DNA of 64,000 bases from Streptococcus pneumoniae (GTDB lineage: Bacteria; Bacillota; Bacilli; Lactobacillales; Streptococcaceae). The translations under genes and the position numbers were made by a program. The notes under the pieces were generated by a model that was not told the DNA's origin, made no database searches, and was given only the letters and a program-made list of their open reading frames with translations. This document shows, piece by piece, positions 24,149 through 33,833 of this stretch; the first letter of the stretch is position 1; each line of letters begins with the position of its first letter. The stretch spans positions 124,001 to 188,000 of the forward strand of contig NZ_CRPU01000001.1 in the NCBI RefSeq assembly GCF_001096185.1, read 5' to 3'.

Positions 24149-26128
24149 TTATTTGACATGTTTTGCAAGTTCTTCTTGCGCTTTTTTATTGGATTCTGCT
24201 TTTTCTTTCATCCATTTTTCTTGAGCTTTTTGGTATTCATCTGCAGTAACTGCCTTGTCTTGAATTTCCAAGTATTTGTATAGGAGCGGATCGCTTGTCC
24301 CCTTGTTACCAGAGAAGGCAAACGGCATCGTAAATGGTACCATCTTAGACAAGATTGGGCGACCAGTGAGTGATGTTGTTGGGATAATCAAGGCACTATC
24401 TGTCAACCAAGCTTGTGCAACTGCGTATTTATCATAACGTTTTACTACGTCTGTTGTCTCATTTCCAGCTTCAGTTACTAATTTCTCATAGTCGTTTAGA
24501 CCAACAGTTTTAGCTGCAGCATTATCTGTACCAGAATCAAAGCCAAGGTAGGTTTTAGTGTTTTCGCCAACTGATGGTTTGATAATATCGAGGTAAGTAG
24601 ATGGATCCGCAAAGTCTGGACCCCAACCAACATTATCTGAAATATCCCAATCTTCCCCAGCTGCTGTTTCAGCAAAGTAGGTAATATTCAAGACTTCATC
24701 TTTTTGTAGTTGTTGAATATCAATTACGACATTATCTGTACCCAAGGTTTCTTCAACCGATTGTTTGAAAGATTGGACACGTTGAACTTTTGTAGTTGCT
24801 GTCTGGTCAACTGGCATATCCAAATGAATTGGGAAAGTCACGCCTTCTGCCTGTAAAGCTGACTTAGCCTTGGCAAATTCAGCCTTAGCCTTGTCTGGAT
24901 TGTAGAGACCATCTTGAGCATCTGCTAAGTTGACATCCTTCCACTCATCCCCATAAGTCACTAATTTTTCTTTGACCATATCGCCAAAGTTTTTCCCATC
25001 TGCTTGAACAAATGTTGGTGGTACAAAGAGATTACGCAAGATTTTGCTTGCACCACTGGCACCGTTCACTTGTGAAGCATAGGCCGTACGATCAAAACCA
25101 AAGGCAATAGCCTGACGGAAATCCTTGTTTAAAAGCGCCTTTTTAGTAGATGTCTTTTGTTCTTCGCTAGTCTTAGATGTGTGTTTATAAGACTGACGAT
25201 CAATATTTGTTCCCACTAGATACGTAGTCGAGTCTTGTTGAGTATAGACAATGTTGTCTTTCATACTCTTCTCAAGCTCTGCGAAACTTGCACTTGTTGG
25301 ATAGAGACGAGCTGCTGTAAAGCTACCATCTTTAAAGTTTTCTGCAGGTTTGCTGGTATCTTGCCCATCCCAGAATGACAATTTAATCTTATCAACATGA
25401 ACATTGTCCTTATCCCAATAGTTCGGATTTTTCGCAAATTCTACGGAAGATTTAGCCACAAGAGATTTTAACAAATAAGGACCATTATACAAGATACTGC
25501 TTGGATCCGTAGCTTTGGCAAAATCATCCCCTTTTGAGTTCAAAAACTCTTCATTAACTGGCGCAAGTACACCCATGGTTGTTTTTGAGTTCCAAAAACT
25601 TTCAGGTTTGTTCAAGGTGTATTGGATTGTTTGGTCGTCAAGGGCTTTAATTCCGACTTGAGCGAAGTCTGTGATTTCACCTTTGGCATAGGCATCCAGA
25701 CCTTTGATTGAATCTTGTACCAAGTAAAGGGCTTGTGATTTCTTATCTGTTGCATATTTAAGACCTGTTACAAAGTCCTGAGCCTTAACAGGAGCGTACT
25801 CTTCTCCCTCAGATGTATACCACTTGGCATCTTTACGAATTTTATAGGTATAAGTCAAGCCATCCTTAGAAACAGACCAGTCCTCTGCCATAGAGGGAAT
25901 CAGATTCCCATAGCGGTCATTTTCAAGCAATCCATCAATGACATTACTAGTAATGTTTGAAGTAGCTGCCTTACTGGTCGTCAAATAGTTGAGGTTATCT
26001 GGATCTGTCTCGTATGTAAATGCAAAGGTCTTTTCACCTTGAGCGCCAGAATCCCCAGAACAAGCAGCTAAAACACCAGCTGCTAATAAGGTTACTCCCG
26101 CAAGAGCCAATACTTTTCTTGTTTTCAT
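24149..26128 (-). CDS. aliA: AliA, oligopeptide-binding lipoprotein of the Ami system
   Basis: About 659 residues. The signal peptide carries a lipobox LAAC (residues 19-22 from the chosen ATG), followed by a full SBP family 5 oligopeptide-binding domain (ENDRYGNLIPSMAEDW, VGTNIDRQSY, NKDFRQAIAFGFDRTAY). It feeds peptides to the AmiCDEF permease and affects competence and colonisation. The ATG six bases after GGAG, downstream of a strong promoter, was chosen over an upstream frame extension that would place the promoter inside the gene. aliA is the right flank of the pneumococcal capsule locus. The allele differs at many residues from the reference I remember. Confidence 0.93.
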   Translation of the reverse strand: MKTRKVLALAGVTLLAAGVLAACSGDSGAQGEKTFAFTYETDPDNLNYLTTSKAATSNITSNVIDGLLENDRYGNLIPSMAEDWSVSKDGLTYTYKIRKDAKWYTSEGEEYAPVKAQDFVTGLKYATDKKSQALYLVQDSIKGLDAYAKGEITDFAQVGIKALDDQTIQYTLNKPESFWNSKTTMGVLAPVNEEFLNSKGDDFAKATDPSSILYNGPYLLKSLVAKSSVEFAKNPNYWDKDNVHVDKIKLSFWDGQDTSKPAENFKDGSFTAARLYPTSASFAELEKSMKDNIVYTQQDSTTYLVGTNIDRQSYKHTSKTSEEQKTSTKKALLNKDFRQAIAFGFDRTAYASQVNGASGASKILRNLFVPPTFVQADGKNFGDMVKEKLVTYGDEWKDVNLADAQDGLYNPDKAKAEFAKAKSALQAEGVTFPIHLDMPVDQTATTKVQRVQSFKQSVEETLGTDNVVIDIQQLQKDEVLNITYFAETAAGEDWDISDNVGWGPDFADPSTYLDIIKPSVGENTKTYLGFDSGTDNAAAKTVGLNDYEKLVTEAGNETTDVVKRYDKYAVAQAWLTDSALIIPTTSLTGRPILSKMVPFTMPFAFSGNKGTSDPLLYKYLEIQDKAVTADEYQKAQEKWMKEKAESNKKAQEELAKHVK

Positions 26129-26153
26129 AGTATTCTCCTTTGTTTTTTTATTC

Positions 26154-26182
26154 ATTATAGACTCTTTTTCAAGTCCTGTCAA
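26154..26182 (-). promoter_or_regulatory. Consensus sigma-A promoter of aliA
   Basis: On the minus strand, TTGACA (26177-26182), a 17-base spacer and TATAAT (26154-26159), a perfect consensus 26 bases upstream of the aliA ATG. Confidence 0.85.
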
Positions 26183-26255
26183 TAGAATTTTCTGAATTTT
26201 AAGAGTTATTTGTTATATTTGATATATTCTGAAAAATAAAATTGTTCATTTATGC

Positions 26256-26308
26256 CAAAAAAGCCAACAGAGATTCTCTTCTGATAAGCAGAAAAGAATC
26301 TTGTTGAC
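26256..26308 (-). terminator. Terminator of glf
   Basis: A long imperfect hairpin on the minus strand (AACAAGATTCTTTTCTG with CAGAAGAGAATCTCTGTT) is followed by a T-rich run. It lies between the glf stop and the aliA promoter. Confidence 0.7.
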
Positions 26309-26362
26309 CTTACTTCTAAAAATCTTAAGTAGCAAAGATTCTAAAATAACGGAATCCTTGCA

Positions 26363-31948: not shown

Positions 31949-31979
31949 AAATAATCTCCTTTAAAATAGTATTTTCACT

Positions 31980-32007
31980 ATTATACCCTATTTTTTTATA
32001 AATGCAA
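31980..32007 (-). promoter_or_regulatory. Sigma-A promoter of aliC
   Basis: On the minus strand, TTGCAT (32002-32007), a 16-base spacer and TATAAT (31980-31985), about 30 bases upstream of aliC. Confidence 0.65.
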
Positions 32008-32079
32008 GAGTTCTTATGGAATTTGTTAGAAAATTCTAACAAATGTTTTTAAAAGAGTTTTTACACAACTTTTAGCAAA

Positions 32080-32212
32080 AAGAGGCTAGGAAAAAAGTCT
32101 TTAAAACAAAAAACGCATAATATCAGGTCAGTACAATAAAAACCTTGGTACTATACGTTTTATTGTGGGAAGATTTACTTCATTTTCTCCTGAAGTCGAG
32201 TTTTTGCCCAAT
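32080..32212 (-). repeat. Interspersed palindromic repeat, copy C
   Basis: It reads in the opposite direction to copies A and B. Its reverse complement has tgggcaaaaactcgact, gaagtaaatcttcccacaat, the ACG..TA palindrome arms and tttaaagacttttt. It lies downstream of dexB. Confidence 0.65.
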
Positions 32213-32222
32213 CTCTCTCATT

Positions 32223-33833
32223 TTAGTCAGTCAATTCCACACAGAAAGCATCCCATGGAGCCAAGATTTGTTTTTCAAAGACTTCTTGAGCTAGGGTGTT
32301 TTCAATCAAGACAGATTTGACGTTTCCTTCTACTGCCAAGTCTTGCTCTTCATTGGACAAGTTAGCCACAACTAAGAAACGACGGGCACCGTCCTTACGG
32401 ATATAGGCAAAGACCTTGTCAGCCGTGTCAAGAAGCTCAAAGTCAGCTCGAATCAGCCAGCTGTTTTCCTTACGAATTTGGACCAAGTTCTGATAGGTAT
32501 AGAAAATAGAATCTGGATTTGCCAGTGCTTCTTGAACATTAATTGCTTGATAGTTTGGATTGACTGCCAACCAAGGCTGACCTGCCGAGAAACCGGCGTT
32601 TTTACTATTATCCCATTGCATTGGAGTACGGGCATTATCACGTCCAATGACACGGATACTATCCATAATTTCTTGCATCGGAACGCCCTTTTCAAGAGCT
32701 TCACGCGCATAGTTGAGGGATTCAATATCTTCTACTTGGTCCAGTGTTTCAAACGGATAGTTGGTCATCCCAATTTCCTCACCTTGGTAGATATAAGGAG
32801 TCCCTCTCATGAGATGAAGCAAAATTGCAAAGGCTTTGGCAGATTTTTCGCGGTATTCCTGGTCATTTCCCCAGATTGAGACGATACGAGGAAGGTCATG
32901 ATTGTTCCAGAAGAGCGAATTCCAACCGTCCTCAACTCCTAACTCTGTCTGCCATTTGTTGAAAATCTCTTTTAACTTAGCAATATTCAATTCTTTTTGA
33001 TAGTGCCATTTAGGCTGACCTTCCTGATACTGAAGACCGATATGTTCAAATTGGAAGACCATAGACAATTCTTGCCCTTTTGGATCCGAGTAGAGCTTGG
33101 CAATCTCTGGCGTTGCCCCCCAAGTTTCTCCCACCGTCAAGAGATCTTTATCTCCAAAGGTCGCTTGATTCATCTCCTTGAGATAAGGGTGGAGCATAGG
33201 ACCATTATTGACTACTTTCTCGTCAGGAATTTTCCCAATCATGTCAATGACATCCATACGGAAACCACCAATCCCTTTATCAATCCAGAAGTTCATCATC
33301 TCATAAATTTTCTGGCGAAGTTTTTCATTTTCCCAGTTGAGATCAGGCTGTTTCTTGCTGAAAAAGTGGAGATAGTATTGACCTGACTTTTCATCGTATT
33401 CCCAGGCAGACCCACTAAAGATAGACTCCAAATCATTGGGCTCATCCCGCCAGATATAGTAATCTCGCTCAGGGCTGTCAGGATTTTCACAGGCCTCGAC
33501 AAACCATGCATGTTCATCTGAGGTATGATTGACCACCAAATCCATGATGATACGGATATCATGCTTCTTAGCTTCCGCGATCAGTTGGTCCATGTCCTCC
33601 ATAGTCCCGAAAATAGCTGCAATCGCTTGATAATCAGCAATATCATAGCCATTATCATCCATCGGACTGTCATAAACGGGAGAAAGCCAAATCGCTGTAA
33701 TTCCTAACTTGGCTAGATAGTCTAACTTACTGGTAATTCCTGGCAAATCGCCAATTCCATCTCCGTTGCTATCCATAAAGCTCTTAGGATAAACTTGATA
33801 GACTACGGCATTGTGCCACCACTTTTCTTGCAT
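32223..33833 (-). CDS. dexB: Glucan 1,6-alpha-glucosidase (DexB), GH13
   Basis: The 536-residue GH13 enzyme has nucleophile Asp194 (GFRMDVID), acid/base Glu236 (VGETWG) and the conserved NHDLPRI near residue 313. It hydrolyses alpha-1,6-linked glucose oligosaccharides in the cytosol. dexB is the standard left flank of the pneumococcal capsule locus, which anchors the position of the aliC-aliD-glf replacement. The upstream region contains a near-consensus cre sequence (33889-33903), suggesting CcpA control. Confidence 0.95.

Follow-up and report, generated by a model that had tools for sequence, protein, structure and literature searches.

Which organism carries a dexB-aliA interval that has no capsule genes and still holds an intact glf, and is such an interval a decayed capsule locus or an allele in its own right? 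These questions are raised by a stretch of 64,000 nucleotides, called the window below (contig NZ_CRPU01000001.1, positions 124,001 to 188,000, of the assembly GCF_001096185.1, which is labelled Streptococcus pneumoniae), in which only aliC, aliD and glf lie in the capsular polysaccharide synthesis (cps) site. A sequence-only reading of this stretch had assigned the locus to the NCC2 type of null-capsule pneumococci. We are highly confident that it is a dexB-aliA locus of the Streptococcus mitis complex in truncated form, lacking a capsule operon. The genes lie on the minus strand in the order dexB, aliC, aliD, glf and aliA, and all five frames are free of internal stops in the list of open frames. 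The limits of the locus (24149 and 33833) were taken as the outer ends of the flanking genes aliA and dexB, and the features are as follows (lengths in amino acids, aa, and base pairs, bp).

32223-33833, minus strand: dexB, glucan 1,6-alpha-glucosidase family, flank upstream of the cps site (536 aa; alpha-glucosidase-type family models)
31949-32222, minus strand: dexB-aliC spacer, with a promoter-like TTGCAT-16-TATAAT ahead of aliC
29981-31948, minus strand: aliC, oligopeptide-binding lipoprotein (655 aa; lipobox LLTAC; PF00496)
27796-29754, minus strand: aliD, oligopeptide-binding lipoprotein (652 aa; lipobox LLAAC; PF00496)
27464-27795, minus strand: aliD-glf spacer, with 126 bp and 60 bp common to null loci and a promoter-like CTGAAA-17-TAAAAT at 27711-27683
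27521-27670, no strand given: BOX-like repeat within the aliD-glf spacer (about 150 bp; matches many places in the genus and in other loci)
26363-27463, minus strand: glf, UDP-galactopyranose mutase, intact (366 aa)
24149-26128, minus strand: aliA, oligopeptide-binding lipoprotein, flank downstream of the cps site (PF00496; promoter-like site at 26182-26154)
21822-23987, plus strand: pbp1A, the next gene past aliA (721 aa; same place in related loci; named by reading)

The name dexB was taken from the position of the gene and from recall, and BOX is what we presume the repeat at 27521-27670 to be called. No frame for wzg, wzh, wzd, wze, a glycosyltransferase, a polymerase or a flippase was found between dexB and aliA, and no other frame of at least 100 aa is present there on either strand, the largest having 90 aa. 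The five open frames confirmed what the sequence-only reading had said of the anatomy, namely that both flanks are intact with only two oligopeptide-binding lipoproteins and glf between them, and its claim that no cps gene lies in the interval stood as well.

A null dexB-aliA locus is insufficient proof that a genome has no capsule genes. When 15 genomes were tested for CpsB, ten had a null locus (nine with a whole or partial glf and one without glf), and CpsB was found in one of these ten, S. mitis 850_SMIT, which has cps genes on another contig; S. mitis SK321 also has a second cps-like locus (PMC5111408). The strain of the window might likewise be encapsulated from a second locus elsewhere, as SK321 and 850_SMIT may be, and a displaced cps operon was sought in its genome, a draft assembly of 24 contigs that is 99.95% complete, with the CpsB, TIGR01007, Bac_transf, Polysacc_synt, Wzz and Caps_synth models. 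These contigs gave no match to CpsB and none to the cps-type tyrosine kinase (TIGR01007). The Bac_transf model matched one gene, on contig 2 and adjoining an aminotransferase, which looks like a core gene because a counterpart was present in each of the 15 genomes tested and a second copy only in the five with CpsB; we presume that it has a teichoic acid role. Two Polysacc_synt flippase matches exceeded the cut-off, one beside an aliB-like gene (this one also matched MurJ) and one beside two LicD genes, while two sub-threshold matches fell in frames that read as MATE-type and CcdA-type. The neighbourhood of rnhB on contig 4 showed large surface-protein-like frames and no cps genes in a stretch that did not reach addA. 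The Caps_synth model gave no signal in the controls either and is uninformative. No model pointed to a displaced cps operon, and that candidate was rejected.

The search of the rest of the genome that the sequence-only reading had proposed thus found no cps genes in the draft assembly, and a second locus that would encapsulate the strain is very improbable. To judge from the sequence, capsule genes are most likely absent from the genome. The Wzx/Wzy operon, which in other mitis-group strains lies between aliD and aliA, would be missing here with no replacement elsewhere in the genome, and because of this the strain most likely lacks a Wzy-type capsule. The earlier claim that the strain is non-encapsulated therefore stands for the genes, which are absent from the interval and which the searches did not recover from the rest of the draft, and for the phenotype it stands as a prediction. 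In 850_SMIT itself (null locus L028), a wzg-wzh-transferase-wzd-wze-EpsG-type polymerase series and glycosyltransferase-like genes lie on contig C116 (L112, L117), downstream of MobC, a relaxase and a large serine recombinase, and are apparently on or beside a mobile element.

The 16S gene, of which one copy is present, reads GTGCAATTGC at the signature site and has an adenine there; we take this site to be position 203. Pneumococci have a C at the signature site and other mitis streptococci an A (PMC7497345). Comparison of the 12.6-kilobase (kb) flank with 13 other genomes gave, in each, a best piece of 84-96% identity, the pieces ranging from 3.5 to 12.5 kb. A true pneumococcus of the null-capsule clade NCC2 would account for a cps site that has both aliC and aliD and no capsule genes, and the two proteins are very close to those of pneumococci. 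However, the 16S base is A and not C in the one copy, glf is intact where NCC2 carries a remnant capN (PMC12282236) and pneumococcal strain 110.58 a glf pseudogene with ntaAB (PMC3541774), and the interval has no further frame of at least 100 aa that could be ntaAB, part of the commonest NCC2 form. In addition, the nearest named null loci among 80 loci compared, which came from an AliC protein search, are labelled S. mitis, S. pseudopneumoniae or just Streptococcus. We consider an NCC2 pneumococcus highly unlikely. Because the 16S base is A, glf is intact and ntaAB is absent, the organism is, from its sequence, most likely a member of the S. mitis complex. The NCC2-type label was not borne out, and the same arrangement is published in S. 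mitis. The genes aliC and aliD are thus not markers of the pneumococcus, which matters for null-capsule typing (a point also argued in PMC12282236).

Several points weigh against a capsule-less member of the S. mitis complex. One of the closer genomes, that of L058, is labelled S. pneumoniae and has 93-96% identity over parts of the flank, the 96% being the highest value found, and the species call was made from a single 16S copy and the 12.6-kb flank comparison rather than from whole-genome identity. The absence of Wzz (PF02706) matches from the genome is weak evidence because the Wzd-like protein of L112 went undetected with this model, too. No galactofuranose (Galf) transferase that would explain glf was identified elsewhere in the genome, but PF05704, the model for one such kind, gave no signal even in the controls and is uninformative. 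Finally, a small cps cluster could lie in an assembly gap of the 24-contig draft. As for L058 itself (NZ_CFGI01000002.1), it is labelled S. pneumoniae strain 19F and its genome has no CpsB match, which may cast doubt on the label, the serotype or the species name.

According to PMC5111408, 26% of S. mitis strains have a truncated locus of this kind; further S. mitis strains are reported with it in PMC12211801, and one S. mitis with two aliB genes and glf in PMC3541774. The window locus is a further example of this published arrangement and is largely ordinary. It has the dexB and aliA flanks, aliC and aliD (either or both being found in such loci), the usual glf and no complete cps operon; no Wzx/Wzy genes turned up in the rest of the draft assembly, a feature that is not strict, since SK321 has its second locus. 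The S. mitis strains B6, NCTC 10712, SK321, SK642 and SK1080 (PMC5111408) and those of PMC12211801 are like the window in having one or two of aliC and aliD, mostly glf, and no complete cps operon. However, B6 is reported to have a non-functional aliB-like gene (PMC2828477), whereas aliC, aliD and glf are all intact in the window; SK321 and NCTC 10712 retain wzg, which was not seen in the window; and SK642 is described without glf, which the window has. The NCC2 pneumococcus 110.58 shares with the window dexB followed by aliC and aliD, the lack of cps genes, and aliA downstream, while NCC2 pneumococci differ from it by a glf/capN remnant and by a putative toxin-antitoxin pair, the latter in 14 of the 24 samples of PMC3541774, the host of the window being most likely not a pneumococcus. 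A truncated locus with aliD only is known in S. pseudopneumoniae (PMC6593409), and the NCC3-type locus of this species (aliD with glf; PMC6593409) has dexB, aliD and glf as in the window. Unlike the window, it is described with no aliC, and aliA is reported not to be downstream (PMC5111408).

The gene order of the window was found in 8 of the 80 loci (L008-L013, L016 and L028, with L012 lacking the 5' end of glf), and another, L014, is a null locus without glf. Because it recurs in 8 of 80 loci, this order is far beyond chance. The dexB orthologues at the same position have 96-97% identity in the eight other null loci with a single full-length match, and the aliA orthologues 91-98% in other null loci. 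Among the matches listed for 147 Streptococcus genomes, the aliD-glf junction was close to intact in at least six (G000, G102, G108, G043, G158 and G098); glf is broken near its start in G158, and the junction match of G098 is in two abutting pieces. Three of them (G102, G098 and G158) seem to be the source genomes of L016, L009 and L012, respectively. CpsB was over the cut-off in none of the six genomes with the junction versus 127 of the 141 others, one sub-threshold match with stops being found in G043. In six cps-bearing genomes picked for look-up (G045, G080, G087, G092, G105 and G119), aliD and glf shared a contig and were separated by 12.5 to 16 kb, and CpsB lay in that interval. In L126, which is from G045, glf begins one base after the stop of a Polysacc_synt flippase.

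The Glf protein matched UDP-galactopyranose mutase 1i8t over its full length with 525.6 bits and TIGR00031 with 444.5 bits for a cut-off of 303.75, a full-length membership of this curated family, and it would probably make UDP-galactofuranose. The 126-bp and 60-bp parts of the spacer before glf were present in each of the ten other distinct null loci compared that have glf (L008-L013, L016, L028, L120 and L121) and a 36-bp part of it was present in L014, while the two parts were upstream of none of the 12 glf genes from cps-bearing genomes (L115 and L124-L134, with at least 278 bp upstream of each). L120 and L121 had been chosen with a query that contained the spacer, and the other eight null loci by the AliC protein search. 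The promoter-like site at 27711-27683 within this spacer has an extended second hexamer. The BOX-like repeat is a presence/absence polymorphism inside the null junction, being present in the window, L010, L013, L016 and L028 and absent from L008, L009 and L011, in which the spacer is otherwise the same. Because the latter three keep the spacer without the repeat, the repeat was probably inserted into a null junction that already existed. A simple deletion from aliD to glf in a known cps locus was rejected as the whole story, the spacer parts having been found neither in the cps-bearing stretches compared nor before the 12 cps-type glf genes. These stretches are a sample, and a donor cps locus that carries the 126-bp and 60-bp spacer may exist. 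The cps-bearing 75_SPSE has two glf genes, with 95% and 66% identity to the window glf, the second of which adjoins aliA (L115:11503-12606).

A tree of 22 glf rows placed the window in a supported clade of six copies, all from null loci (96/97). This tree omits L119 and L123 (by length the same contigs as L016 and L009), the incomplete L012/L122 copy, and copies with less than 80% identity or with stops (L115_11509 and L113_6989). The null label requires four changes across the whole tree; the null glf copies therefore do not all form a single clade, and genes have probably passed between null and cps-bearing strains. Within the all-null clade, the mean nonsynonymous rate (dN) was 0.0132 and the mean synonymous rate (dS) 0.2415, a ratio of 0.055 (15 pairs), while dN/dS was 0.028 for six cps-type copies. 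It ranged from 0.028 to 0.063 when the window glf was compared with seven other null-locus copies, and the all-pairs means of dexB, aliC, aliD and aliA were 0.041 to 0.060. The window glf differed from the other five clade copies by 6 to 12 nonsynonymous changes and no stops, whereas 1000 neutral simulations of 60 changes averaged 42 nonsynonymous changes (minimum 31) and 2.6 stops, and 7.6% of them were stop-free. This constraint, read from the alignments, suggests that the gene is kept.

The authors of PMC5111408 interpret such loci as degraded cps loci, and glf could accordingly be a functionless leftover of the lost operon. It is absent from L014, cut at the 5' end in L012 and a pseudogene in pneumococcal 110.58 (PMC3541774), and the null clade has roughly double the dN/dS of the six cps-type copies. 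Gene flow from cps-bearing strains could also keep glf intact and be an alternative source of the constraint pattern. Against a leftover are the supported all-null clade with its low dN relative to dS, the few nonsynonymous changes compared with the neutral simulations, and a promoter-like leader of its own, although the promoter scan overall was not clearly above chance (32 sites versus 25.2 expected, standard deviation 5.0), so that only its strong or conserved sites were used. We put the leftover a little short of an even chance. We lean towards a working glf over a dying remnant because of its own leader and its conservation. The null allele in turn looks old and would be shared between strains through recombination.

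We propose, tentatively and knowing that it may well turn out otherwise, that mitis-group null loci represent an old, maintained allele rather than a set of decayed capsule loci, with glf under selection and served by its own promoter. If so, capsule-less commensal streptococci would still make galactofuranose for some other surface glycan, with the transferase outside the cps site, and, if glf is truly maintained, a Galf-bearing surface glycan unlinked to cps is open to direct search through a one-gene deletion in a commensal. A literature search on galactofuranose in S. mitis gave no direct answer, and a limited search found no published account of a null-specific glf leader or of glf constraint, most papers in both being represented by their listing. 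The shared null-specific leader and the constraint on glf may be the only new parts of the locus.

The bit scores of the two lipoproteins favoured the solved AliC and AliD and did not group them with ordinary AliB; such a grouping is what the sequence-only reading had set as counting against it. AliC scored 1396 bits with the crystallised pneumococcal AliC (8qlh) and 785 bits with AliB, while AliD scored 1374 bits with the crystallised pneumococcal AliD (8qlc) and 837 bits with AliB, the alignment to the solved AliD showing about ten differences over 626 aligned residues. Both have an SBP_bac_5 domain and a lipobox cysteine and are closest to AliC and AliD among the solved AliB, AliC, AliD and AmiA. 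By sequence comparison they are AliC and AliD, not ordinary AliB. Pneumococcal AliC and AliD bind peptides (PMC11192437) and have been tied to peptide recognition, gene regulation and reduced complement deposition (PMC11192437, PMC9973307). By analogy with the published pneumococcal Ami system, the proteins of the window would be surface lipoproteins that bind short peptides and pass these to the Ami permease, and they may widen the repertoire of peptide uptake and sensing. That colonisation needs such sensing is a hypothesis.

Seven SBP_bac_5 matches were found in the genome. In addition to AliC, AliD and AliA, they are an aliB-like protein on contig 6, one on contig 8, an amiA-like protein on contig 17 and an AliC-like paralogue on contig 3. 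The AmiA-like gene on contig 17 (L136) is followed by two oligopeptide-type permease and two ATPase genes; gene names in these contig neighbourhoods come from reading the translations. The AliC-like paralogue (79%; L137:7833-9800) lies beside branched-chain aminotransferase-like and parC-like frames. An AliC match of 78-80% without an adjoining dexB was present in 40 of the 80 AliC-search loci (L047-L086).

The promoter scan also gave TTTACA-17-TAAAAT before aliD (29822-29794) and a 12/12 match before aliA (26182-26154), while TTGCAT-16-TATAAT ahead of aliC was read by eye and is absent from the scan list. The aliC-proximal half of the dexB-aliC spacer is also present in cps-bearing loci, while its dexB-proximal half was full-length in null loci only, among the loci compared. 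An Rfam scan of the 20-40 kb region of the window found RNase P only. Because the 26182-26154 match overlaps the TTG start of the longest aliA frame, the ATG at 26128 is the most likely start of aliA; our own scripts and the family-model search took 26131, one codon upstream. Past dexB there are a 494-aa frame and luxS (named by reading).

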